From an uncultured Caulobacteraceae bacterium (GTDB lineage Bacteria > Pseudomonadota > Alphaproteobacteria > Caulobacterales > Caulobacteraceae): a stretch of 36,072 nucleotides of DNA. The notes under the pieces are model-generated. The model worked only from the letters and a program-made list of their open reading frames with translations. It was not told where the DNA came from and did not search any database. The stretch lies in contig CALMGB010000295.1 of the NCBI GenBank assembly GCA_937863535.1, forward strand, positions 1 through 36,072. The letters are read 5' to 3'. Every line of letters starts with the position of its first letter. Within the stretch, counting starts at the first letter, position 1. Both the position numbers and the translations under genes were made by a program. Of the stretch, positions 1-36,072 are shown one piece after another.

Positions 1-111
1 GACCGATCCTCCGGGCGCGCCGCCGATCTGGGCTAAGGCTGCATGGGCGGCGAGGCTCGACGCCATGGCCGTCGCGCAGCACATGGTTAGCCGCAGGGTT
101 TGAAGCTTCAT
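1..111 (-). CDS. N-terminal fragment of a secreted/exported protein (signal peptide only), truncated by window edge
   Basis: Minus strand from 111 reads MKLQTLRLTMCCATAMASSLAAHAALAQIGGAPGGSV, a Sec signal-peptide-like sequence with AxA-type cleavage region, preceded by GGGAGG ribosome-binding site; frame open to window edge. Confidence 0.6.
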   Translation of the reverse strand, partial: MKLQTLRLTMCCATAMASSLAAHAALAQIGGAPGGSV

Positions 112-358
112 AATCCTCCCCAAGTCTTCTTGTGGCGTTCCGTCGTTGCGGATCCACCTTCGATATCTCACAGCCAGAAGCCGGATAGACGCTGCTGTCC
201 TCGTAAGATCGGACGGCATCCCGCCTGTCGGGTGACCTACCAAGCGACAGGATGGAGCGCCTGCCGCTTCAGTCGAAAGGTAGGCGTGCGGATTGGAACA
301 CAGTGCGCCCTGGCCTATGCTCGTATGGGCCGAGGTGAACTCAGCTCTGGAGCCTCCC

Positions 359-625
359 ATGCGCGCAGCCCGGATCAATGGCCTGGGTGGGCGGCCGGCT
401 CTTGTCGACATTGCGGAGCCTGAGCCTCGACCCGGCGGCTCGTTGATCACCGTCATCGCAGGCGGCGGCGGGTCCATCGACCTCCAGGGCGCCAATGGCG
501 TCTTCGGCCCGATCGACGACCGGCTCGAAGACGCTGTGCTAGCCCTGGGCGGGCCAGAGCGCCGGCCCGCGCGCCAAGGTCGTCGTACGTCCATGATCCT
601 TGGCCTGCCGCGCCAGGATGTCTGA
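359..625 (+). pseudogene. Possible degenerate N-terminal remnant of a zinc-type/medium-chain dehydrogenase
   Basis: MRAARINGLGGRPALVDIAEPEPRPGGSLITVIAG resembles the N-terminus of MDR quinone oxidoreductases, but the frame loses similarity and stops after 88 codons. Confidence 0.3.
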
Positions 626-655
626 CGGCTCGCAAGCCCACACGAGGACATTTCC

Positions 656-1213
656 ATGACCGCCGCTCTCACCGACATTGCCTTCACGCGGATGGACGGC
701 GCGGGCGCGACTCTTGCAGACTTTGGCGGCAAGGTGCTGCTGATCGTCAACGTGGCGTCCAAGTGCGGCCTCACCCCGCAGTATGAAGGGCTGCAGGCGC
801 TGTACGCGGCCAGGCGACAGGACGGCTTCGAGGTGCTGGCCTTCCCGGCCAACGACTTCAATGGGCAGGAGCCCGGCACGGACGCCGAGATCATCGACTT
901 CTGCATCAGCACTTACGATGTCGAGTTTCCGGTCCTTAGCAAGATCGCCGTCACCGGTTCGGCTCGCCATTCCCTCTATGCGGCCCTGACGCAGACCGAA
1001 CCTGTCGCGGTCGGCGAAGGACCTATGCGCGCCCGTCTGGAGAGTTACGGCGTCAAGACGACCCCGCCGCCGGAAATCTCGTGGAACTTTGAGAAATTCC
1101 TGATCGATCGAAACGGACAGGTCGTAGGACGCTTCGCCCCGGATGTGCCCGCGGACGATCCACGTCTCGTGGCCAGCATCGAAGAGGCGCTGGCCGCCCC
1201 GTCGCCGAGCTAA
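656..1213 (+). CDS. Glutathione peroxidase family protein (Cys type)
   Basis: Contains NVASKCGLTPQYEGLQ active site, FPANDFNGQEPG and PEISWNFEKFLIDRNGQVVGRF motifs. Confidence 0.93.
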   Translation: MTAALTDIAFTRMDGAGATLADFGGKVLLIVNVASKCGLTPQYEGLQALYAARRQDGFEVLAFPANDFNGQEPGTDAEIIDFCISTYDVEFPVLSKIAVTGSARHSLYAALTQTEPVAVGEGPMRARLESYGVKTTPPPEISWNFEKFLIDRNGQVVGRFAPDVPADDPRLVASIEEALAAPSPS

Positions 1214-16738: not shown

Positions 16739-17995
16739 ATGGCCGATACCAACCGCAGCCCCCTCGCCACCGACGACCAGCGCGACGTCGAGCGCCTGGC
16801 GCTGCGCCTGATCGAGACACCCGAGGTTCGCCGCGCGCGGGAAGGCGCGCGCGCCCTGCTGCTGGCCGACCCGGTGGCGCAGACGCCCGACGGCCGGCTG
16901 GGCCTCGACCGGGCGCTGGACCAGTGGACCCTGGCGCTGGCCATGCGGGTGGCCAACAGCGACGCGCACCGGCCGCGCATCGCCTGGAACGTCTACAATG
17001 CGCCCCGCACCTGGTTCGGCCACACCTACCCGGGCGCCGCGGTCGCCATCGACAACCCCGACAACGCCAACCGTGAAATCCCCGTCGAGGGCGGCTCCCG
17101 CTATGAGGTCCACGGCCGCTACGGCGCCCCGCGCACCCAGTTCACCATAGAGGTGGTGGCGGAGTTCGACGGCTATGCCGGCCTCGGACGGACGCTGTGC
17201 GCCCTGACCCGCCAGCAGATCGAGGCGGATGCCGAGGGGCGCTTCGTCATCACCATCGACGCCGATCCGGCGGGCGGACGGCCCAACCACCTGCGCTGCG
17301 AAGGTGGCGTGCAGTGGGTGTTCGCCCGCGACAGCCTGTCCGACTGGCGCCAGGTCCCGACCGCGCTGGAGGTGCGCCGCGTCGGCGGCCCGGCGGCCGC
17401 GGCCGCCCGGACCGAGGGCGAGTTCGCGCAGGACATCGCCGCCAAGATGGCGGGCTGGGTCGGCTTCTGGCGCGGGTTCAAGGACGGCTTCCTGGGCTAT
17501 CCGGAACCCAACCGCCTGGTGGGCCCGATCGGGCGCGAGGGTGGCTGGGGCTTCCTGGCCGGCGGGCGGTTCGAGATCGCCGACGACGAGGCGGTCGTGA
17601 TCCGCACGACCGACGGGAGCGCCTACTACACCGGCTTCCAGGTGGCCGACCCCTGGACCATCGCGCCGGACCCGGTGCACCGCACCGCCAGCCGCAACAA
17701 GGCGCAGGCCATGCGCGACCCGGACGGCGGCTACACCTACGTGCTGGCCGCGCAGGATCCGCGCGTGTGCAACTGGATCGACACGGTGGGCCTGCACCAG
17801 GGCTGGATGCTGCTGCGCTGGCAGGGCGTCCCGGCCGGGCTCGATCCCAAAACGCTGATCCGCGGCGTGGAGACGATCCGCTTGGCGGGCGTTGACGCCG
17901 CTCTCGCAAACACGCCCAGAGCAGACCTGGCTTTCCGGCGGACCGAAGTGGCGGAGCGCGTCCATACGCATGGCCTGCGCACCTGCCATGTCTGA
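16739..17995 (+). CDS. Uncharacterised protein, weakly DUF1214-like, translationally linked to the sulfotransferase
   Basis: Intact 418-aa ORF beginning 3 bp after the sulfotransferase stop; C-terminal segment DPDGGYTYVLAAQDPRVCNWIDTVGLHQGWMLLRWQGVP resembles DUF1214-type domains. Confidence 0.65.
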   Translation: MADTNRSPLATDDQRDVERLALRLIETPEVRRAREGARALLLADPVAQTPDGRLGLDRALDQWTLALAMRVANSDAHRPRIAWNVYNAPRTWFGHTYPGAAVAIDNPDNANREIPVEGGSRYEVHGRYGAPRTQFTIEVVAEFDGYAGLGRTLCALTRQQIEADAEGRFVITIDADPAGGRPNHLRCEGGVQWVFARDSLSDWRQVPTALEVRRVGGPAAAAARTEGEFAQDIAAKMAGWVGFWRGFKDGFLGYPEPNRLVGPIGREGGWGFLAGGRFEIADDEAVVIRTTDGSAYYTGFQVADPWTIAPDPVHRTASRNKAQAMRDPDGGYTYVLAAQDPRVCNWIDTVGLHQGWMLLRWQGVPAGLDPKTLIRGVETIRLAGVDAALANTPRADLAFRRTEVAERVHTHGLRTCHV

Positions 17996-18106: not shown

Positions 18107-19078
18107 ATGGCGGAAACTGATCCTACGCCGCGATGGTGGGCGCTGGCCCTCTCCGAGCAGGTCACGGGGAAAGCGCCCCTGGCGGTGCGCTGCGGCGAGG
18201 AGGAGGTGGTGCTGTTCCGTGACGCCGGAGGCGTCGCCCGCGCCCTGGAGGATCGTTGCCCCCACCGCCGCGTGCCCCTGTCACTCGGCAAGATCACGGC
18301 CGGCGGCCAAATGCAGTGCGGCTATCACGGCTGGACCTATGACGGGGCCACCGGCAAGTGCGTGGCCATCCCCAACCTGCACGATGACGAGAAGGTGCCC
18401 GAACGCTATCGCGCCGAGACCCGCGGCGTCACCGAGCGGGACGGCTTCATCTATGTGTGGATTGGCGCGCCGCAGGCGAGCGCCGCACCCCTGCCGCCCT
18501 CGCTCTACACGCCGGGCGGCCTGCGGGAACATCGGGGGTCGGTGACCCTGCCCCTGTCCCACGACGCCTTTGTCGCCGCCCTGTTCGATGGGCCCTGGGT
18601 GCTGCTCGACTTCGCCACCTCCCGCGTCACCGACTTCCTTCTCGGCGATCCCGAGATGTCGGACGGCTGGCTGATGCTGGAGCGCGGCGCCACCTGGGGC
18701 GGCCCGCACCTGCCCGACCGCTTCGTCCCGGAATGGCCGCTGGTGCTCCGGGTCACCGTCGAGCCCGTCACGGGCGAGACCCTGGTGGAGATGCTGGACA
18801 CCAACGAACGGCTGATCTCCGCCGCGGAGGTCAGCGCGGCCCCGGCCGCCCGGGGCACGACGGCGGTGATCTGGCGCTCCTATGCGGCGGACTACGGAGG
18901 CCCCGCCGGGCTGGCTACCCGCGGCCTCTCCATGGCCGGAAGGCCCGCGATTTCGGTGCGGCGCTTCGTCAATGGGCGCAAGCTGGCGAGCCTTCGGATC
19001 GCGCCGTCCCACATCTGGCGCACGACCCTTCGCGCCGCCCGAGACAACGCCCCCGCCCAACGCGACACCGCGGCCTGA
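18107..19078 (+). CDS. Rieske [2Fe-2S] protein; oxygenase-like with altered mononuclear-iron motif
   Basis: Rieske motif CPHRR...CGYHGW present; expected HxxxxH region reads LSHDAFVAALFDG (second His replaced by Ala). Confidence 0.88.
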   Translation: MAETDPTPRWWALALSEQVTGKAPLAVRCGEEEVVLFRDAGGVARALEDRCPHRRVPLSLGKITAGGQMQCGYHGWTYDGATGKCVAIPNLHDDEKVPERYRAETRGVTERDGFIYVWIGAPQASAAPLPPSLYTPGGLREHRGSVTLPLSHDAFVAALFDGPWVLLDFATSRVTDFLLGDPEMSDGWLMLERGATWGGPHLPDRFVPEWPLVLRVTVEPVTGETLVEMLDTNERLISAAEVSAAPAARGTTAVIWRSYAADYGGPAGLATRGLSMAGRPAISVRRFVNGRKLASLRIAPSHIWRTTLRAARDNAPAQRDTAA

Positions 19079-19088
19079 GGAGACGAAG

Positions 19089-20141
19089 ATGGACATGCTC
19101 GAGACCGACGTCCCCAATGCGGGCCGCGCTAACAAGCTCACGTCGCCGGTGCGCGACTGGAACCCGGGCTCCTACCGCCTGCGCGACGCCTGGTTCCCGC
19201 TCGCCCACTCCGAGAGCGTGCGCAAGCGCCCGGTAAAGCGGCTGGTGCACTCCCAGCCCTACTACCTGGTCCGCGACGCGCAGGGTAAGGCCCTCGCCAC
19301 CGAGTTCCACCCGGAGCGCTTCGCCGAGCAGCGGCGCTTGGCCAGCGAGTTCACCGGCGGCACGGGCGAGTACCCGGTGACCGAGATCTACGGCTACGTC
19401 TGGTGCTGGTACGGCGATCCGGCCCGCGCCGACCTCAGCCTGATTCCCGACATCCCCTACCTGCCCCGTAAGGGCGGGTTGCCGGGCTACATGCGCTCCA
19501 CCACCCGCTTCGATTCCTGCTCGGAGCTGAGCCTGGAGAACCTGCTCGACCTCACCCACGCCGACTATCTGCACACCTACCTGACCGGCGACGAGGAGTG
19601 CGACAGCGACACGGTGACGGTTGAATACACCTCCGAGACCGTCACCATGATCCGCGACCAGATCAACAAGAAGACGCCGGACTTCATGAAGAAGATGGGC
19701 GTGAAGTCCGAGCGGCTGGACTTCCGCGGGGTCATCCACGTCTATGTCCGCAGCAGCGTGGCGCACGCCTTCGGGCGCTTCACGCCGGGCTACAGCGTGC
19801 CGCTGTTCCACCCCTGCGTGCCGGAATCGCAGTTTCAGAACCGGCTGAACGTGACCATCAACTCCTGGGACGCGCCCTGGCTGTTCAAGCACATGATGCC
19901 GCTTCAGGGCTACACCGTCAGCCCGCAGGACAACTACGTCACCCGGCCGCAGAACGCCCGCTACCTGGAGCCGACGGACCGGCGCGACATGCACTCCCGC
20001 TTCGACGGCGCCGGCATCCGCTACCGTTTCCTGATGCAGCAGCTGGCAGAACGGCAGAGCCAGGGCGACTACTCCTACCTGCCTGACGCGGACATCGGGC
20101 GCGATCTGACCGAACTGTTCCGCACCATCCGGGTCGAGTAG
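19089..20141 (+). CDS. Rieske oxygenase-like catalytic subunit lacking the Rieske cluster motif
   Basis: LENLLDLTHADYLHTYL (NxxDxxHxxxxH-type iron site) retained; N-terminal domain WFPLAHSESVRKRPVKRLVHSQPYYLVRDAQGKALATEFHPERFAEQRRLASEFTGG... has no CxH/CxxH pair. Confidence 0.85.
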   Translation: MDMLETDVPNAGRANKLTSPVRDWNPGSYRLRDAWFPLAHSESVRKRPVKRLVHSQPYYLVRDAQGKALATEFHPERFAEQRRLASEFTGGTGEYPVTEIYGYVWCWYGDPARADLSLIPDIPYLPRKGGLPGYMRSTTRFDSCSELSLENLLDLTHADYLHTYLTGDEECDSDTVTVEYTSETVTMIRDQINKKTPDFMKKMGVKSERLDFRGVIHVYVRSSVAHAFGRFTPGYSVPLFHPCVPESQFQNRLNVTINSWDAPWLFKHMMPLQGYTVSPQDNYVTRPQNARYLEPTDRRDMHSRFDGAGIRYRFLMQQLAERQSQGDYSYLPDADIGRDLTELFRTIRVE

Positions 20142-20171: not shown

Positions 20172-20722
20172 CTAGCTCACCTCGACTTTCACCGGGAACC
20201 GGTCGAAGCAAAACCCGAACCGGTCGCGCACCGCCCTGCGGGTCCAGGCCGAAGTCCCGCCGCAGGTTTTGGACCACCTTGCCCTGGTGGCCCGAGGGGT
20301 GGCTGTCCAGGTAGGCGTGCAGCTCCGCCAAGGTTGCATCGGTGAGCGGGAGGCCGCCAAGCTGTAGATGTCGCGCAGGATCGCGTCCGCGTTCGCGATC
20401 CACTCGTGGAGTAGACGTTCAGCGTCTGGGCCGGGGGGCAGCGCGTCCGGTCCCGCAAGCAGGCCCGCAGCAGCGTCTCGTAGCGGTCCACACAGTAGTC
20501 CACCTGCCTGCGCCCCTCCACCCGGCGACGGAACACGCGCGCGGCATAGGCCGACATGGTCGCCGCCGACGGGATGGAGGCCACCGGGTCGCGATGGGTG
20601 ATGACGAAGGCGGCGTCGGGGAAGGTGGCATGGAGCGCGGGCAGCTGCTCCATGTGGTGGGGGCACTTGATGACCCAGCGGTTCGGACCCCGGAACCAAG
20701 TCAGCACCTGCAGCACCTTTTT
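20172..20722 (-). pseudogene. Sulfotransferase pseudogene (N-terminus missing, multiple frameshifts)
   Basis: KKVLQVLTWFRGPNRWVIKCPHHMEQLPALHATFPDAAFVITHRDPVASIPSA in one frame; LHEWIANADAILRDIYSLA in a second; LTDATLAELHAYLDSHPSGHQGKVVQNLRRDFGLDP in a third; end RDRFGFCFDRFPVKVEVS* back in the second. P-loop half absent, TGA directly upstream. Confidence 0.85.
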
Positions 20723-20749
20723 CAGGTAGGCTTAGGTCCCGACTTAGTC

Positions 20750-21451
20750 ATGATTGCGATAAAAGTCGCGCCAGGGCCTGCCTGGGAGAGCCTGCCCAAC
20801 CTCTACACCATCCGCGGCGACAAGATCCGCTCGGCCCTGGAATACATGGGGTCGCTGGACCGCGTGCGGGCGCTTCAGGCCGAGATCCTGATCACCGGCC
20901 ATGGCGAGCCGGTGCGCGGCCGCGCCCTGATCGACGACACGCTGGGCCGCATGCGCGCGGCGGTCATGCACATCCACGACCAGACCGTGGCCGGCATGGT
21001 CGCCGGCAAGGACGTGCGCAGCCTGATGCGCGAGATCGAGTTTCCGGCGGAGCTGCGCGTCGCCCAGCTGCACGGCAAGACGTCCTGGAACGTGCGCGCC
21101 ATCTGGACGGAGTACATCGGCTGGTTCGACTACGGCAGCACCACCGAACTCTATGGCGTACCCCCCTCGGCCATCGCGCCGGACCTGCTGGAGCTGGCCG
21201 GCCACGACGCCCTGCTGGCCAGGGCCGCCGGGCACATGACGGCTGCAGAGCCGCTGAAGACGCTGCACCTGACCGACATCCTGCTCGCCGCCGACCCGGC
21301 CGACTTCGCCGCCGTCGCGGTCAAGAAGGATGCGCTCATCCAGATGCTGGCGGGCTGCAGCGGCGAGAACATGAGCGAGACCATGTGGCTGCGCTCCGAA
21401 ATCCTGGCGGCCGACCGCGCCCTCGGCATCGAGGCGACAACGAATGGCTGA
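20750..21451 (+). pseudogene. C-terminal half of an alkyl/aryl-sulfatase (metallo-beta-lactamase, SdsA1/BDS1-like), 5'-truncated
   Basis: SLPNLYTIRGDKIRSALEYMGSLDRVRALQAEILITGHGEPV followed by LRVAQLHGKTSWNVRAIWTEYIGWFDYGSTTELY is typical of alkylsulfatase C-terminal regions; N-terminal metal-binding HxHxDH part is absent. Confidence 0.75.
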
Positions 21452-26265: not shown

Positions 26266-27396
26266 TCAGTGGGGCTCTTCCATCGGCGTCGTGGCGCGCA
26301 TCAGGGCGTAGAAGGCCGGCCCGAGCTCGGGCACGTCCATTCCAAGCTTGCGAGCCAGATACTGGGTCATCAGGTTGTCGGTCACCGATTTGTTGTCCGA
26401 GCGCAGCGTGCCCAGGCTGATCTGCCGGTCCACCTGGCGAAGAGCGATGATAGCCATGCGCAGGCCCGTGAGAATGTCGTAATAGTCCATATCGCGCGCT
26501 TCACGACCAGCGAAGCCTTCGTAGGTGGCGATGGTCTGCTGGCGTTCCGGCAAGCCGTCCAACCGCTTGACGCCAAAGGCGGTGCTGAACAGCTCATCAA
26601 AGTAGAGCCACCAGGCCAGGTCGATCTCGGGCGGCCCGAGCGCCGCCAGCTCCCAATCGATCAGCGCCGCAACGGTCCCGTCCTCGCGGAACATGGTGTT
26701 CGAAGGCGTGGGATCGCCCCACAGCACCGCGATCCCCGCCTCGCTCGGCCGGTTGCGTAGGACGTAGTCCAGGGCGGCGTCGGCGATGGGCTGCGGGCGG
26801 CCCTTGGCGGCCCAGGCGAACCACGCCTGCATGTAGTGGAGATACTGGTCGAGGCCCGGACGCCCGCGCTCCGGCCGGTCTAGGAACTCGAACCCCTGAC
26901 GCCAGTCCAGCCGGTGCAGCTTGGCCAGCGCCGAGAGCGCGTTGGTCCAGGCGGCGCGGCGCTGGGCGGGCTGGAGGTCGGCCAGCCAGCCCTCGACGTT
27001 GTAGTTGGGCTTCTGGGCGGCGGCCCGGCCCTCGACCTTGCCCATGACCAGGAAGGGCGCGCCGAGGACGGCGGGGTCTTCCTCCATGCCGATCCACGGC
27101 GGCCCCGGCACATCGCCGACCTTGTCCAGCGCCGCCATCACCTTGCTCTGAAGGGACAGGTCACCGCCGAGCACCAGTTCGAACGCGCCGGCCTGGCGGC
27201 GGATGGCCAGGGTGCGCTGGTGCGCGCCTGTGTCGTCGCGATAGGCCACGTCGGCGAAGAAGATCTCCGCCGACCAGCCGGAGCCCTCGTGCAGGTCGGG
27301 CGGCGAGACCCGCACCTCTTGCCAGCCTGCGATCTTCTGCGACAGCCAAGTCTGGAGGCGCGCGCGGATCGCCTCGGCGTCGGCGGGCGCGGTCAT
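26266..27396 (-). CDS. Phosphotransferase family protein (APH/ACAD10-11 kinase-domain-like)
   Basis: PFLVMGKVEGR, WGDPTPSNTMFREDGTVAALIDWELAALGPPEIDLAWWLYF; start at MTAPADAEA (27396), ATGA overlap with LLM gene stop. Confidence 0.92.
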   Translation of the reverse strand: MTAPADAEAIRARLQTWLSQKIAGWQEVRVSPPDLHEGSGWSAEIFFADVAYRDDTGAHQRTLAIRRQAGAFELVLGGDLSLQSKVMAALDKVGDVPGPPWIGMEEDPAVLGAPFLVMGKVEGRAAAQKPNYNVEGWLADLQPAQRRAAWTNALSALAKLHRLDWRQGFEFLDRPERGRPGLDQYLHYMQAWFAWAAKGRPQPIADAALDYVLRNRPSEAGIAVLWGDPTPSNTMFREDGTVAALIDWELAALGPPEIDLAWWLYFDELFSTAFGVKRLDGLPERQQTIATYEGFAGREARDMDYYDILTGLRMAIIALRQVDRQISLGTLRSDNKSVTDNLMTQYLARKLGMDVPELGPAFYALMRATTPMEEPH

Positions 27397-28475
27397 GCGG
27401 GCCGCGCCGCCAGGGCTCGGCGAAGTTCCGCCGTCAGGGGACCCATCGCCTTGGGTGAACTGCCGTGCAGCAGGATCTCGTCCGCGCCGGCGTTGAGGAA
27501 GCTCATCAGCTGGTCGGCGCACTGGGCGGCGGAGCCGACGGCGGCGCCATCGGCGATCCAGTCCGGCGGCAAGGTGCGGCTGGCTTCCACCAGCTGGTCG
27601 CGGGTGAAGGCCTGGTCGGCGGTCTGGCCGCCGAGGTTCGCGAGCGTCGGGTGGGCGCGCAGCGCATGCAGAGGTGAGTGATCCCAGCCGTTCACGTCGG
27701 CGATCATCTCGCCGAAGCCCGGCAACTGGAAGTAGGTCACCGCGCGTCCGCCGACCACCGCCTCCTCCTCGTCCTTGGGCAGATCGGGAGCCACGATGAT
27801 GTTGTGGCAGATGCGCACCGACCTGGGGTCGCGCCCGGCCTTCTCCGCCGCCTCGCGTACGATCCGGGCGGAGTTGGCTACGCCCTGGGCTGTGACGAAG
27901 GGGTGCAGCAGCACGCCGTCGCAGTGCTCGCCCGCAAAGGCCAGCGCCTTGGGCCCCATGGCCGTGAAGATGATCGGAGGCGGCGGCCCGTCGTAGCGGT
28001 CGGTGAGCTTCAGCGAGGGGAACTTGCCGAGGATGCCTTCGTACTCCACCGTCTCGCCCGCCCAGAGCCGACGGATGATGGAGATGTAGTCCGCCAGCCG
28101 CGGGAAGGTGATGTTGGGCGAGCCGAGTTCGGCCAGGTAGGACGGCACCGCCCGAGCGAACATGATCCGGAACCGGTCGCCGCTGAGCGCCTGCATCAGG
28201 TTGCCGACGCTGGCCGTGACGATCGGGTGGCGCATGGTGGCGTACATGGTGCCCACGATCCGCACCTTGTCGGTCAGCTGGCTCACCGCGCCGCTGAGGA
28301 CGGCGGGCTCCTTCACCGCATAGCGTTCGGAGATCCAGACTGCGCCGAGCCCGATCCGCTCGGCCTCGCGCGCCTCCTCCAGGCCGCGCTTAGGATCGCT
28401 GACCCGGCCCGGGAGGATGTAGGTGCCGAACTTGTCGAACAGCTCGGCCGCGCCGGCCTCTTCGGTGTCGCTCAT
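27393..28475 (-). CDS. LLM-class (luciferase-like) oxidoreductase, probably F420-dependent
   Basis: FGTYILPGRVSDPKRGLEEAREAERIGLGAVWISERYAVKEPAVLSGAVSQLTDKVRIVGTMYATMRHPIVTASVGNLMQALSGDRFRIMFARA; matches the F420-type LLM family pattern. Confidence 0.88.
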   Translation of the reverse strand: MSDTEEAGAAELFDKFGTYILPGRVSDPKRGLEEAREAERIGLGAVWISERYAVKEPAVLSGAVSQLTDKVRIVGTMYATMRHPIVTASVGNLMQALSGDRFRIMFARAVPSYLAELGSPNITFPRLADYISIIRRLWAGETVEYEGILGKFPSLKLTDRYDGPPPPIIFTAMGPKALAFAGEHCDGVLLHPFVTAQGVANSARIVREAAEKAGRDPRSVRICHNIIVAPDLPKDEEEAVVGGRAVTYFQLPGFGEMIADVNGWDHSPLHALRAHPTLANLGGQTADQAFTRDQLVEASRTLPPDWIADGAAVGSAAQCADQLMSFLNAGADEILLHGSSPKAMGPLTAELRRALAARPA

Positions 28476-28855: not shown

Positions 28856-28877
28856 TTTGTTTTACAGGTTGAACAAA
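28856..28877. promoter_or_regulatory. Inverted repeat TTTGTT-N10-AACAAA in divergent promoter region
   Basis: AT-rich 6+6 bp inverted repeat between the ferredoxin start (28837, -) and the Rieske alpha start (28938, +); candidate operator for the TetR regulator at 32925. Confidence 0.35.
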
Positions 28878-28937
28878 ATCTGCGCAATGGGTACAGGATC
28901 GCAAGTCATCCTCGCGCGGTTGAACGGGAGAGCCCCC

Positions 28938-30329
28938 ATGCTGCAGAAGTCAACGCTGACGCTCAGAGACGGTACGTCGATTGACGACCTGATCGATGTG
29001 GACATGCACGAGGTGTCGCTCCGCACGATGAGCGACCCTGAACTCTATCACCATGAAATGGAACGGATTTTCGCCAAGACCTGGCTGCTGCTGGGCCATG
29101 AGACGGAAATTCCCAAATCCGGCGATTTCATCGTCCGCGACATGGGCGAGGATCAGGTGATCGTCGCCCGCGACCGCGAGGGCGCGATCCACGTCTCGCT
29201 GAACGTCTGCCCGCACCGCGGCATGAAGGTCTGCACGGGCGAGGCCGGCAACACCCAGGTCCATCGCTGCATCTATCACGGCTGGGCCTTCCGCCCGAAC
29301 GGCGACTTCATCGGCGCGCCCATTGAGCGCGAGCAGATGCACGGCGCCATGCGGCCCAAGGAGGAGCTCGGCCTGAAGAAGGCGCGGGTGCAGCTCTATG
29401 GCGGCATGATCTTCGCCACTTGGAACATCGAGGGGCCGTCGTTCGACGAGTTCCTGGGCGACTTCAAGTTCTACCTGGACCAGCTGTTCTGCCGCACCGA
29501 CGGCGGACTGGAGCTGCTGGGGCCGCCCCAGCGCTACACCATCCCCGCCAACTGGAAGACGGCCAGCGAACAGTCGGCCTGCGACGGCTTCCATACCCTG
29601 ACCCTGCACCGCTCCCTGATGGAGGGCGGCATCATGGGCGCGACGGCGGACACCATCTACGACATGGCGCCGGGCATGTACGGGGTGGACGTCAGCTGCC
29701 ACGAGGGTCACTCGCTGCGCTGCATCCCCGCGGCGACCACCTTCAAGATGTTCTCTGACATCAGCTTCGATGGAAAGACCACCGAGGAGCGGCTGCGCCT
29801 GCTGCCGCCCCCGGGCATCACCCAGGACCTGATTCCGCAGCTGATGAAGAACCTGTCGCCCGAGCAGGTCGAGATGCTGGCCACCACGCCACCCCAGGTG
29901 GGCGGGCTGTTCCCGAACTCCTCGATTATCTTCATCTTCGCGCCGCGGATGGACGGTGGGGCCTCGGGCGCCCTGGCGCTCCATACCTACAACCCCAAGG
30001 GGCCGGACGCCTTTGAGTTCGTGAACTACATCTTCGCCGAGCGCGATGCCCCCGAGGACGTCAAGCGCGACATGCTGCAGAACGCCATCCAGCAGACCGG
30101 CACCTCCGGCGTGATCGAGCAGGACGATGCGGACACCTGGCCCGCCATCTCCCGCAACGCCCACGGCGCGGTCGGCAAGACCATCACGCTCAAGTACCAG
30201 GCCCTGACGGGCGACCGGAAGCCCGAGGGCTGGGCGGGCGGCGGCTTCGTCTATGACGGCTTCACCAAGGACGACACCCAGTGGAACTGGTGGTTGAACT
30301 ACCGCCGCCTGATGGCCAGCGGGCTCTGA
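28938..30329 (+). CDS. Aromatic-ring-hydroxylating dioxygenase, large (alpha) Rieske subunit
   Basis: CPHRGMKVCTGEAGNTQVHRCIYHGWAF Rieske motif and NWKTASEQSACDGFHTLTLH mononuclear iron site; start at MLQKSTL with RBS-like GGGAG. Confidence 0.95.
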   Translation: MLQKSTLTLRDGTSIDDLIDVDMHEVSLRTMSDPELYHHEMERIFAKTWLLLGHETEIPKSGDFIVRDMGEDQVIVARDREGAIHVSLNVCPHRGMKVCTGEAGNTQVHRCIYHGWAFRPNGDFIGAPIEREQMHGAMRPKEELGLKKARVQLYGGMIFATWNIEGPSFDEFLGDFKFYLDQLFCRTDGGLELLGPPQRYTIPANWKTASEQSACDGFHTLTLHRSLMEGGIMGATADTIYDMAPGMYGVDVSCHEGHSLRCIPAATTFKMFSDISFDGKTTEERLRLLPPPGITQDLIPQLMKNLSPEQVEMLATTPPQVGGLFPNSSIIFIFAPRMDGGASGALALHTYNPKGPDAFEFVNYIFAERDAPEDVKRDMLQNAIQQTGTSGVIEQDDADTWPAISRNAHGAVGKTITLKYQALTGDRKPEGWAGGGFVYDGFTKDDTQWNWWLNYRRLMASGL

Positions 30330-30339
30330 GGACGGATTG

Positions 30340-30933
30340 ATGCAGCAGCCCGTAAAGACGCTCGAGCGCGCCACCGCCGCCCCGGACAAGTCCGGGGTGA
30401 TGCGGGGGCTCAGCTCCAAGATCCGCGTGCCCGTGGGGTCGGAGGTCTACAACCGCGTCGTCGAGACCCTTTACGACGAGGCGGCCTCCCTCGACGAACG
30501 CCGCTTTGACGACTGGGTGGCCATGCTGTCCCAGGACCTGGTCTACACCGCGCCGCTGCGGTTGACCCGCACCGGGCCGAACCGCGATCGCGACGTGGTG
30601 CGCACGACCTCGCACTTCGACGACACCTACGCCTCCATCCTCCAGCGCACGGGCCGCCTGACCAAGAGCGCTTGGGCGGAGGACCCGCCGTCGCGCACCC
30701 GCCGCTTCGTCACCAACATCCGGGTGGGCGAGCGCGAGGCCGCAGGCGAGTACGAGGTGGTCAGCTACCTGCTGGTCAAGCGCAGCCGGGGCGAGAACCC
30801 GCACACCGAGGAGGTCTCGGCCGAACGGCGCGACGTCTGGCGCGAAGTGCAGGGCGAGTACAAGCTGGCCCGGCGCGAGATCATCGTGGACCAGTCCACG
30901 ATCCTGATGTCCAACTTCGCGATCTTCTTCTGA
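30340..30933 (+). CDS. Ring-hydroxylating dioxygenase small (beta) subunit
   Basis: EVYNRVVETLYDEAASLDERRFDDWVAMLSQDLVYTAPLRLTR ... TRRFVTNIRV ... WREVQGEYKLARREIIVDQSTILMSNFAIFF. Confidence 0.94.
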   Translation: MQQPVKTLERATAAPDKSGVMRGLSSKIRVPVGSEVYNRVVETLYDEAASLDERRFDDWVAMLSQDLVYTAPLRLTRTGPNRDRDVVRTTSHFDDTYASILQRTGRLTKSAWAEDPPSRTRRFVTNIRVGEREAAGEYEVVSYLLVKRSRGENPHTEEVSAERRDVWREVQGEYKLARREIIVDQSTILMSNFAIFF

Positions 30934-30937
30934 TCCG

Positions 30938-32119
30938 ATGACCCAGCGCAGCGTCCCAGCCCATGTGGTGGTGGTCGGCAGCGGCCTGGCCGGCTATGGC
31001 GTGCTGCGCGAGCTGCGCCGCCTGTCGCCCGAGGCCCGGCTGACCCTCGTCACCCTGGACGACGGCCACTTCTACTCCAAGCCAGCCCTGTCCACCGCGC
31101 TAAGCAAGGGCAAGGCCGCCGACACGCTGGTCACCACCTCCGGCGAGAAGATGGCCGCCCAGCTCAGGCTCGACCTGCGCTCTGGCCGTGCCGCCGAGGC
31201 CATTGATGCGCAAGGACAGGTGCTGCTCACCACCGGCGGCCCGATCTCCTATGACGGGCTGGTCCTGGCGCTGGGCGCACTTCCGATCCAGCCCACGCTG
31301 GAGGGCGATGCGGTCCACCGGCTGGTGTCGGTGAACCACCTGGATGACTACCGCCTGTTCCGCGAGCACTTGGCCGACGGCGCACGCGTGCTGATCCTGG
31401 GCGCGGGCCTGGTGGGCACGGAGTTCGCCAACGACCTCTCCGCCAACGGCTACAGGCCTACCGTGGTGGACCCCCTCGCCCACCCGCTCGCCCAGCTTAT
31501 TCCCTCGGAAGCTGGCGAGACTGTGCGCACCGCCCTGGCGGACGCCGGGGTGGACTGGCGGCTCGGCCGCAAGGTGGTCGCGGTTGATCATGCCGGCGCC
31601 GGATTCCGCGCCACCCTGGACGACGGGAGCGCGGTGGAGGCAAATGCGGTGCTCTCCGCTATCGGCCTGCGCCCGCACGTCGATATCGCCGTGGAAGCGG
31701 GACTGGAGGTCGGACGCGGCGTCAAGGTAGACGCCACGGGCCGGACCAGCGATCCGCGCATCTACGCTATCGGCGACTGCGCCGAGTATCAGCGGGGGGT
31801 GGCGGCCTATGTCACCCCGATCATGGCCGCCGCCCGCGCCATTGCGCCGAGCGTGCTCGGCCAGCCGACAGACATACGCTTCCCCCCCCTGTCCGTGCAG
31901 GTGAAGACCACAGCCTGCCCTGTCGTGCTGCTGCCGGCGCCCTCGGGCGCGGCGGGCGCTTGGTCGAAGACGGAGGAGGGGCCGAAGGGCTCCAAGTATC
32001 TGTTCCGTAGCGAGCAGGGCGAGGTGCTCGGCTACGTGCTCACCGGCGAGTTGTGCGAGGAGCGCGTCTCCATGGACCGGTCCCTGGTCCAGGCCACGAC
32101 GAAAGGGATGGCGGCGTGA
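30938..32119 (+). CDS. FAD-dependent ferredoxin/rubredoxin reductase (GR-type)
   Basis: VVVVGSGLAGYGVLRELRR FAD motif, VLILGAGLVGTEFANDL NAD motif, IYAIGDCAEY, and rubredoxin-reductase-like C-terminus VQVKTTACPVVLLPAP. Confidence 0.9.
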   Translation: MTQRSVPAHVVVVGSGLAGYGVLRELRRLSPEARLTLVTLDDGHFYSKPALSTALSKGKAADTLVTTSGEKMAAQLRLDLRSGRAAEAIDAQGQVLLTTGGPISYDGLVLALGALPIQPTLEGDAVHRLVSVNHLDDYRLFREHLADGARVLILGAGLVGTEFANDLSANGYRPTVVDPLAHPLAQLIPSEAGETVRTALADAGVDWRLGRKVVAVDHAGAGFRATLDDGSAVEANAVLSAIGLRPHVDIAVEAGLEVGRGVKVDATGRTSDPRIYAIGDCAEYQRGVAAYVTPIMAAARAIAPSVLGQPTDIRFPPLSVQVKTTACPVVLLPAPSGAAGAWSKTEEGPKGSKYLFRSEQGEVLGYVLTGELCEERVSMDRSLVQATTKGMAA

Positions 32120-34871: not shown

Positions 34872-36072
34872 TCAGACGAGCGCTTCGGCCTGAGCGCCAT
34901 AGACGGTGGAGCGTTGGACCGCGTTGCGGCCGATGCCCTCCGCAAGGGCCTGCATGTCGTCCACGCCCATCAGTTGCCCGTTCACGCCGCCCGCGGCCCG
35001 GGTGATTGACTCGTTCATCAGCACGCCGCCGAGGTCGTTGGCCCCGGCCTGCAGCGCGAGCGCCGCGCCCTCCCGCCCCATCTTTACCCAGGAGGTCTGC
35101 ACGTTAGCCACCAGCGGGTGCAGCACCAGCCGCGCCACCGCGTGCATCAGCAGCGCCTCGCGGAACACCGGGCCCGAGCGCGACTGACCCCGCCGCCATA
35201 TGGGCGCTTCCATGTGCACGAAGGGCAGGGGCACGAACTCGGTGAAGCCGCCCGTCCTCGCCTGGAGCGCGCGCAGCCGCAGCAGGTGGCGCGCCCAGTG
35301 GCGGGGATGGTCGACGTGACCGAACATGATGGTGGCGGTGCTGCGCAGCCCCACCTCGTGGGCGGTCTCCATCACCTCCAGCCACTCGGCGGTATTGACC
35401 TTGTCGGGGCAGATGCGGTCGCGCACCTCGTCGTCCAAGATTTCCGCCGCGGTGCCCGGCAGCGTGGCCAGCCCCACAGCCTTCAGCCGGCGCAGATAGG
35501 CCTCCAGGGAGAGACCAAGCGTGCGGGCGCCGTGGAAAACCTCCAGCGGCGAGAAGGCGTGCACGTGCATGTCCGGCGTGGCCGCCTTCACCGCCTGGAC
35601 GATGGAGAGGTAGGTGTCGCCCGTATAGGCGGGATGGATGCCGCCCTGCAGGCAGACCTCGGTGGCGCCTGCGGCCCGCGCCTCCACGCTCCGGCGGGCG
35701 ATCTCCTCCAGGTCTAGGCGGTAGGCGGGACCGCGGGCGTCGCGGGCGCCGCCGCCCTTGGAGAAGGCGCAGAAGCTGCAGTGATGCAGGCAGATGTTGG
35801 TGTAGTTGATGTTGCGGTTGACCACGAAGGTGACCGCGTCCCCCACCACCTCGCGCCGCAGCCCGTCCGCTGTATGCACCACCGCCTGGAAGTCGTCGTC
35901 CTCGACGGCGAACAGGGAGACGATGTCGGCCTCGACCAGCTCCCGTCCAGCGCGAACGCGGTCGAGCAGGCGGGCGATCCCCGGCGAAGCCGCGCACGGC
36001 GGACGCGCGGCCACCCGGGCGCGCAGCTGCGGCGATACGGGCGTGACCGAGCCGGCGAACCAGTCGTCAATG
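34872..36072 (-). CDS. cofH: F420 biosynthesis radical SAM protein, CofH / C-terminal half of an FbiC-type protein (5' end beyond window)
   Basis: VTFVVNRNINYTNICLHHCSFCAFSKGGG radical-SAM CxxxCxxC, AGATEVCLQGGIHP, MHVHAFSPLEVFHGA, LPGTAAEILDDEVR, GHVDHPRHWARHLLRLRALQARTGGFTEFVPLPFVH, QTSWVKMG..GANDLGGVLMNESITRAAG. Reading frame stays open upstream of GTG 36014 to the window edge (IDDWFAGSVTPVSPQLRAR). Confidence 0.92.
   Translation of the reverse strand, partial: IDDWFAGSVTPVSPQLRARVAARPPCAASPGIARLLDRVRAGRELVEADIVSLFAVEDDDFQAVVHTADGLRREVVGDAVTFVVNRNINYTNICLHHCSFCAFSKGGGARDARGPAYRLDLEEIARRSVEARAAGATEVCLQGGIHPAYTGDTYLSIVQAVKAATPDMHVHAFSPLEVFHGARTLGLSLEAYLRRLKAVGLATLPGTAAEILDDEVRDRICPDKVNTAEWLEVMETAHEVGLRSTATIMFGHVDHPRHWARHLLRLRALQARTGGFTEFVPLPFVHMEAPIWRRGQSRSGPVFREALLMHAVARLVLHPLVANVQTSWVKMGREGAALALQAGANDLGGVLMNESITRAAGGVNGQLMGVDDMQALAEGIGRNAVQRSTVYGAQAEALV

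Follow-up and report, generated by a model that had tools for sequence, protein, structure and literature searches.

Two adjacent genes in the window (the whole stretch of DNA that was analysed, 36,072 nucleotides) encode degenerate Rieske oxygenase chains that have lost opposite metal sites: P1 keeps the [2Fe-2S] cluster and P2 keeps the mononuclear iron. The two very probably form one Rieske oxygenase, an obligate heteromer whose electrons would cross from the cluster of P1 to the iron of P2. An obligate hetero-oligomer with inter-subunit transfer had been put forward in the original prediction, and both the ligand alignment and the failure to find an orphan of either gene in the genomes and plasmids surveyed support it. 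The physical complex, the electron path, the stoichiometry and the oxygenase activity described below are predictions from sequence comparison.

Genes, family assignment and metal sites

The features of the window and the further occurrences of the pair are given in Table 1. As originally predicted, the two genes are adjacent, 10 bp apart and of VanA/DMO type; the coordinates and the family agree with the translations, Pfam and profile comparison, and both reading frames are fully open. In Pfam searches P1 matched Rieske alone (E = 4e-22), with its catalytic domain unmatched, and P2 matched VanA_C alone (E = 2e-28), with Rieske unmatched. Profile comparison with intact relatives aligned P1 over 304 columns (E = 2.5e-40), weakly in the C-terminal half, and P2 over 327 columns (E = 6e-38). 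The nearest solved relatives of both chains are dicamba monooxygenase (DdmC/DMO; PDB entry 3gb4) and guaiacol O-demethylase (PDB entry 7qwt). Neither chain reached the curated cut-off of any NCBIfam family; against 4beta-methylsterol monooxygenase SdmA (NF052579; cut-off 600), P1 scored 67 bits and P2 29 bits, so they are not members. Judged by these profiles, P1 and P2 are distantly related to oxygenases of the dicamba monooxygenase/VanA type, and are degenerate siblings rather than unrelated parts.

Table 1. Features of the window and places at which the pair, or part of it, was found.
Feature	Position or locus	Strand	Basis or remark
P1, Rieske-only subunit, 323 aa, ATG start	18107..19078	+	translation; Pfam; profile match; AF2 and Foldseek
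Rieske [2Fe-2S] ligands of P1: C51, H53 ... C71, H74	18257..18328	+	alignment
Degenerate iron site of P1: P149, H152, A157	18551..18577	+	columns aligned to P2 D154/H157/H162
P2, mononuclear-iron-only subunit, 350 aa, ATG start	19089..20141	+	translation; Pfam; profile match
Vestigial Rieske region of P2, both cluster-binding loops deleted	19281..19379	+	alignment
NLLDLTHADYLH of P2: bridging D154, iron ligands H157, H162	19539..19574	+	alignment
D281 of P2, carboxylate ligand of the facial triad, in SPQDNYV	19929..19931	+	alignment
418-aa protein just upstream of the pair	16739-17992	+	no Pfam match
Incomplete sulfotransferase	20189-20716	-	positions 94-191 of the 216-position Pfam model only
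ORF with alkyl sulfatase dimerization domain only	about 20700-21448	+	
Luciferase-like oxidoreductase	27396-28475	-	
Ordinary Rieske ring-hydroxylating dioxygenase (alpha, beta) and ferredoxin-reductase-like gene	28857-32116	+	
CofH (FO synthase part)	34875-36071	-	contig edge
Second family of the same order as the window	L002		adjacent P1-P2
Contig fragment of another genome	L003		adjacent P1-P2
Acidocella aquatica	L031		adjacent P1-P2
Acetobacteraceae MAG	L032		adjacent P1-P2
Novosphingobium resinovorum SA1 plasmid pSA2	L035		adjacent P1-P2
Croceicoccus marinus plasmid pCME4A9I	L036		adjacent P1-P2
Massilia putida plasmid (Betaproteobacteria)	L037		adjacent P1-P2
Second C. marinus plasmid	NZ_CP060053		P1 and P2 matches in neighbouring positions
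P1 orthologue	L041 (G276:C250), 32-799		runs off contig start

Ligands were assigned from an alignment of the window pair and its orthologues (seven complete pairs) with 27 intact VanA-type relatives; a DNA motif scan, which returned 18 Rieske-motif loci, was used solely to supply alignment rows. Neither chain is a conventional alpha subunit with both metal sites on one polypeptide, as judged by Pfam and the alignment. The cluster ligands CxH...CxxH were found in P1 only, and the 2-His-1-carboxylate set with its bridging Asp in P2 only, as the two-chain reading predicts. An intact 2-His-1-carboxylate site in P1 or a displaced [2Fe-2S] site in P2, which the original prediction had named as evidence against itself, was not seen in the alignment with the 27 intact relatives.

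The cluster ligands of P1 lie in the motifs CPHRR (C51, H53) and CGYHGW (C71, H74) and are invariant in all seven complete P1 sequences and in 27 of 27 intact relatives. The iron-site columns, which read Asp, His and His in 27 of the 27 intact relatives, have drifted in P1. Across the seven P1 sequences the bridging-Asp column reads P, P, G, A, S, A, A (P149 in the window), the first-His column HTQHHHF (H152 in the window; His kept in four of seven) and the second-His column A, L, S, S, D, A, D (A157 in the window). The position of the third ligand, which is the least certain column of the alignment, holds Asp in six of seven and Asn in the window. With the first His kept in four and this Asp in six of the seven sequences, the iron site of P1 is broken, not wiped out, and P1 may retain residual metal binding. 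The original prediction had read CPHRR...CGYHGW and, in LSHDAFVAAL, a second His changed to Ala; the alignment confirms A157, with H152 present, and adds the loss of the bridging Asp (Pro149), which had been overlooked.

The remainder of P1 is a C-terminal domain of ~190 aa without an iron site, in which G144, D161, P163, R193, W197 and R257 are invariant in all orthologues. An AF2 model of P1 built from a five-row alignment gave pLDDT values of 80-95 for the Rieske domain and low confidence for the C-terminal domain. Dicamba monooxygenase gave the best Foldseek match to this model (E = 5e-13, 273 columns), and the alignments with it, SxtT and KshA spanned roughly 270-300 columns with a TM-score of ~0.45, so the search backs only the family and the two-domain layout of P1, and the coordinates were not used. 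These data bear on the possibility that P1 is a dissociable Rieske-ferredoxin-like carrier making transient contact with P2 as a stand-alone iron oxygenase, an arrangement closer to NdmD serving NdmC. The Rieske domain is indeed the best conserved and the only confidently folded part of P1, and nothing else in it was matched in Pfam, which likewise gave no FMN, NAD or plant-type ferredoxin domain. However, a Rieske ferredoxin of ~105 aa has no need of the C-terminal domain that P1 retains with its invariant residues, and P1 resembles both domains of intact oxygenases in Foldseek and profile comparison. We therefore regard a mobile carrier as unlikely.

The P2 motif NLLDLTHADYLH lines up with DLGHAQYVH in dicamba monooxygenase, where the Asp is the bridging D157 and the two His are the iron ligands H160 and H165. 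The corresponding positions D154, H157 and H162 are invariant as D/H/H in eight of eight P2 sequences, and the position of D281 holds Asp in seven of seven complete P2 sequences and in the 26 of 26 intact relatives that cover that column. The columns of the four cluster ligands (C51, H53, C71 and H74 in P1) read P, A/V/E/D/gap, S/T and T in the seven P2 sequences; no ligand is left because both cluster-holding loops have been deleted, with ~25 residues between the strands that flanked them. An intact iron site, the loss of CxH and CxxH and a compressed span between had all been predicted, and the alignment agrees in each respect. A single-sequence AF2 model of P2 (pLDDT 31) was discarded.

Conservation and genomic setting of the pair

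Adjacent P1 and P2 genes were found at seven further places and on one contig fragment. The order is P1 then P2 in every pair, the spacing ranges from -4 to +31 bp among the seven measured pairs, and the complementary ligand pattern (cluster in P1, iron site in P2) is identical in all seven complete pairs aligned. Among 72,556 plasmids, long P1 matches and close P2 matches fell in the same four records (4/4 co-occurrence). Among 299 genomes of the order, full-length P1 was found in four (at least 248 bits, against at most 103 for all others among the matches listed); P2 adjoins it in three, and the fourth (G276) is cut by a contig end. No orphan P1 or P2 was found in the 299 genomes of the order or in the 72,556 plasmids. 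The original prediction had called for a search for conserved tandems and had counted homologues living alone as evidence against it; the tandem is conserved, and no lone homologue came to light in these two collections. Surveys of the class (395 genomes), the phylum (399), the Acidocella order (200), the G259 genus (42) and the window's own genus (3) turned up no P2 beyond these; the family is thus rare, patchily distributed and in part plasmid-borne.

Viral contigs were scanned with A2, P0001 and an intact relative, and no relatives were found. Separately, two IMG/VR viral contigs (L076:1947-2903 and L077:7563-8519) carry nearly identical intact Rieske oxygenases of 319 aa, which are possibly virus-carried metabolic genes.

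The identities of P1 and of P2 between genomes are correlated (r = 0.96), and dN/dS between two Acidocella-type copies is ~0.15 for P1 and ~0.06 for P2, which indicates purifying selection on both. P1 groups apart from the 27 intact relatives with 99% bootstrap support, and P2 apart from 26 with 100%. The window comes from a fragmented draft assembly (434 contigs, 86% complete), which might raise the suspicion of a decaying duplicate or of an assembly or frameshift artefact. We hold this to be extremely improbable, as the frames are fully open, the pattern is repeated in complete plasmids and in genomes of two classes, and both genes are under purifying selection. Chance and decay are excluded by the pattern in seven complete pairs together with the selection and the open frames; frameshift, pseudogene and chance were accordingly rejected.

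It is also very unlikely that one chain works while the other is a regulatory or scaffolding pseudoenzyme, with the missing metal site supplied by a third protein. Pair-bearing genomes do encode other Rieske oxygenases, and two of the clusters have a 2Fe-2S ferredoxin close to the pair; yet the cluster ligands of P1 and the iron ligands of P2 are all invariant, which is hard to square with an idle metal site, and neither gene was found without its partner in the collections surveyed.

Many of the window's genes have counterparts near the pair at other loci. An SDR (86% identity) and a sulfotransferase (61%) recur near the Croceicoccus pair; another SDR (63%), a VOC protein (56%), the luciferase-like oxidoreductase (75%, to a pSA2 protein annotated as F420-dependent) and a phosphotransferase (55%) recur near the Novosphingobium pair; and CofH recurs near both (64-66%). 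Near the Massilia pair are counterparts of the ordinary ring-hydroxylating dioxygenase alpha and beta genes (58% and 47%, respectively) and of a glutathione peroxidase (52%). The 418-aa protein is 30% identical in its C-terminal part to a DUF1214 protein near the N. resinovorum pair. In Novosphingobium and Croceicoccus the surroundings of the pair also include further F420 genes and a 2Fe-2S ferredoxin; the closest relative of this ferredoxin in the genome of the window is on a different contig, at 37% identity. Directly downstream of the pair, the partial sulfotransferase and the alkyl sulfatase ORF look like a rearranged or decayed junction. The cluster around the pair looks catabolic, and the sulfotransferases, SDRs, luciferase-like oxidoreductases and, in some of the clusters, F420 biosynthesis genes point to an uncharacterized catabolic pathway. 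The presence of CofH and the luciferase-like gene in the window, and of F420 genes beside the pair in Novosphingobium and Croceicoccus, suggests that mobile DNA of Alphaproteobacteria carries a catabolic pathway that uses F420.

Proposed electron path and assembly

With no intact triad in P1, no displaced cluster in P2 and no orphans in the surveys above, an obligate heteromer with inter-subunit transfer is the best reading. Electrons from a ferredoxin/reductase donor would enter the [2Fe-2S] cluster of P1 and cross the interface between the chains by way of D154 of P2, reaching the iron bound by H157, H162 and D281, where O2 and substrate would react. The window has no dedicated reductase gene immediately adjoining the pair. 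In ordinary Rieske oxygenases the cluster lies ~12 Å from the iron of the neighbouring subunit and transfer takes place between subunits (PMC12445004). Every subunit of such an enzyme thus takes part in two interfaces. Since inter-subunit transfer is usual in the family, a pair with complementary losses keeps one working and one dead interface: that from the P1 cluster to the P2 iron would be retained, and in the opposite one, which would run from P2 to P1, both metal sites are gone. That both halves of the dead interface are free of metal is what would be expected once the heteromer had become obligatory.

Dicamba monooxygenase and guaiacol O-demethylase are homotrimers. Two kinds of subunit cannot take turns around a canonical alpha3 ring, so P1-P2 must either be built differently or be productive only in part; candidate assemblies are a heterodimer, a ring with an even number of subunits, a stacked arrangement and a trimer that is partly productive. 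A non-trimeric assembly, either a heterodimer such as P1-P2 or an even ring such as (P1P2)2, is put forward tentatively, as a possibility rather than an expectation; one type of interface would then carry all transfer and the reciprocal one would be metal-free. If true, it would break the three-fold symmetry common in the family, and in the resulting asymmetric system the cluster and the iron could be mutated, loaded and titrated separately.

Known systems and implications

Kunugi et al. reportedly found in 2013 that the chlorophyllide a oxygenase (CAO) of Micromonas pusilla consists of one chain with the Rieske motif and another with the iron motif, both required for activity. P1-P2 resembles it in having two paralogous chains with complementary loss of metal sites; the likeness is one of architecture only, and no descent is claimed. 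Micromonas CAO is eukaryotic and serves chlorophyll biosynthesis, whereas P1-P2 is bacterial, of dicamba monooxygenase/VanA type and set in a catabolic gene cluster. The two chains of Micromonas CAO are suggested to form a heterodimer and are active in vitro with VanB; a trimer-of-dimers arrangement has been proposed for them and structural work called for (PMC9615114).

NdmC, the caffeine N7-demethylase of Pseudomonas putida CBB5, has no Rieske cluster of its own and receives electrons from that of another protein; the Rieske domain that it lacks is joined to the reductase NdmD in a fusion, and a GST-like protein, NdmE, is needed as well (PMC4408171). P2 is like NdmC in being a bacterial oxygenase chain without a cluster. 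Unlike in NdmC/NdmD, the cluster of P1 sits on a degenerate oxygenase paralogue with no reductase fusion. The original prediction cited NdmC/NdmD as precedent, which holds but is the looser parallel; its guarded remark that the paired arrangement is not a standard textbook class needs correcting, as Micromonas CAO, which it did not cite, is an exact precedent. NdmA/NdmB (PDB entries 6ICK and 6ICL) form an alpha3-alpha'3 hetero-oligomer with both metal sites in both chains (PMC12445004); a hetero-oligomer of two related oxygenase chains is predicted for P1-P2 as well, but each Ndm chain keeps both metals. Dicamba monooxygenase and guaiacol O-demethylase, unlike P1-P2, also carry both metals on every chain, and the ligand motifs of the former align with those of the pair.

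No published description of the bacterial P1-P2 pair was found in the open-licence literature, nor anything relevant there on F420/sulfotransferase/Rieske clusters or split Rieske enzymes. P1-P2 is a distinct bacterial family, apparently undescribed, whose catabolic gene clusters are mobile and in some cases include F420 genes. Its occurrence suggests that splitting the work between complementary chains has more than one origin, with the bacterial case separate from algal CAO. Distant bacteria carry the pair as a conserved unit with one metal site in each chain, so P1 and P2 most likely work only together; either one, annotated as an ordinary oxygenase subunit and expressed alone, would be expected to fail. 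Homotrimers carry both metals in each chain, and inter-subunit transfer is therefore hard to test in them. In a natural pair with one metal each, inter-subunit transfer, Rieske-to-iron gating and assembly symmetry would become testable by mixing, metal loading and mutation of single chains.
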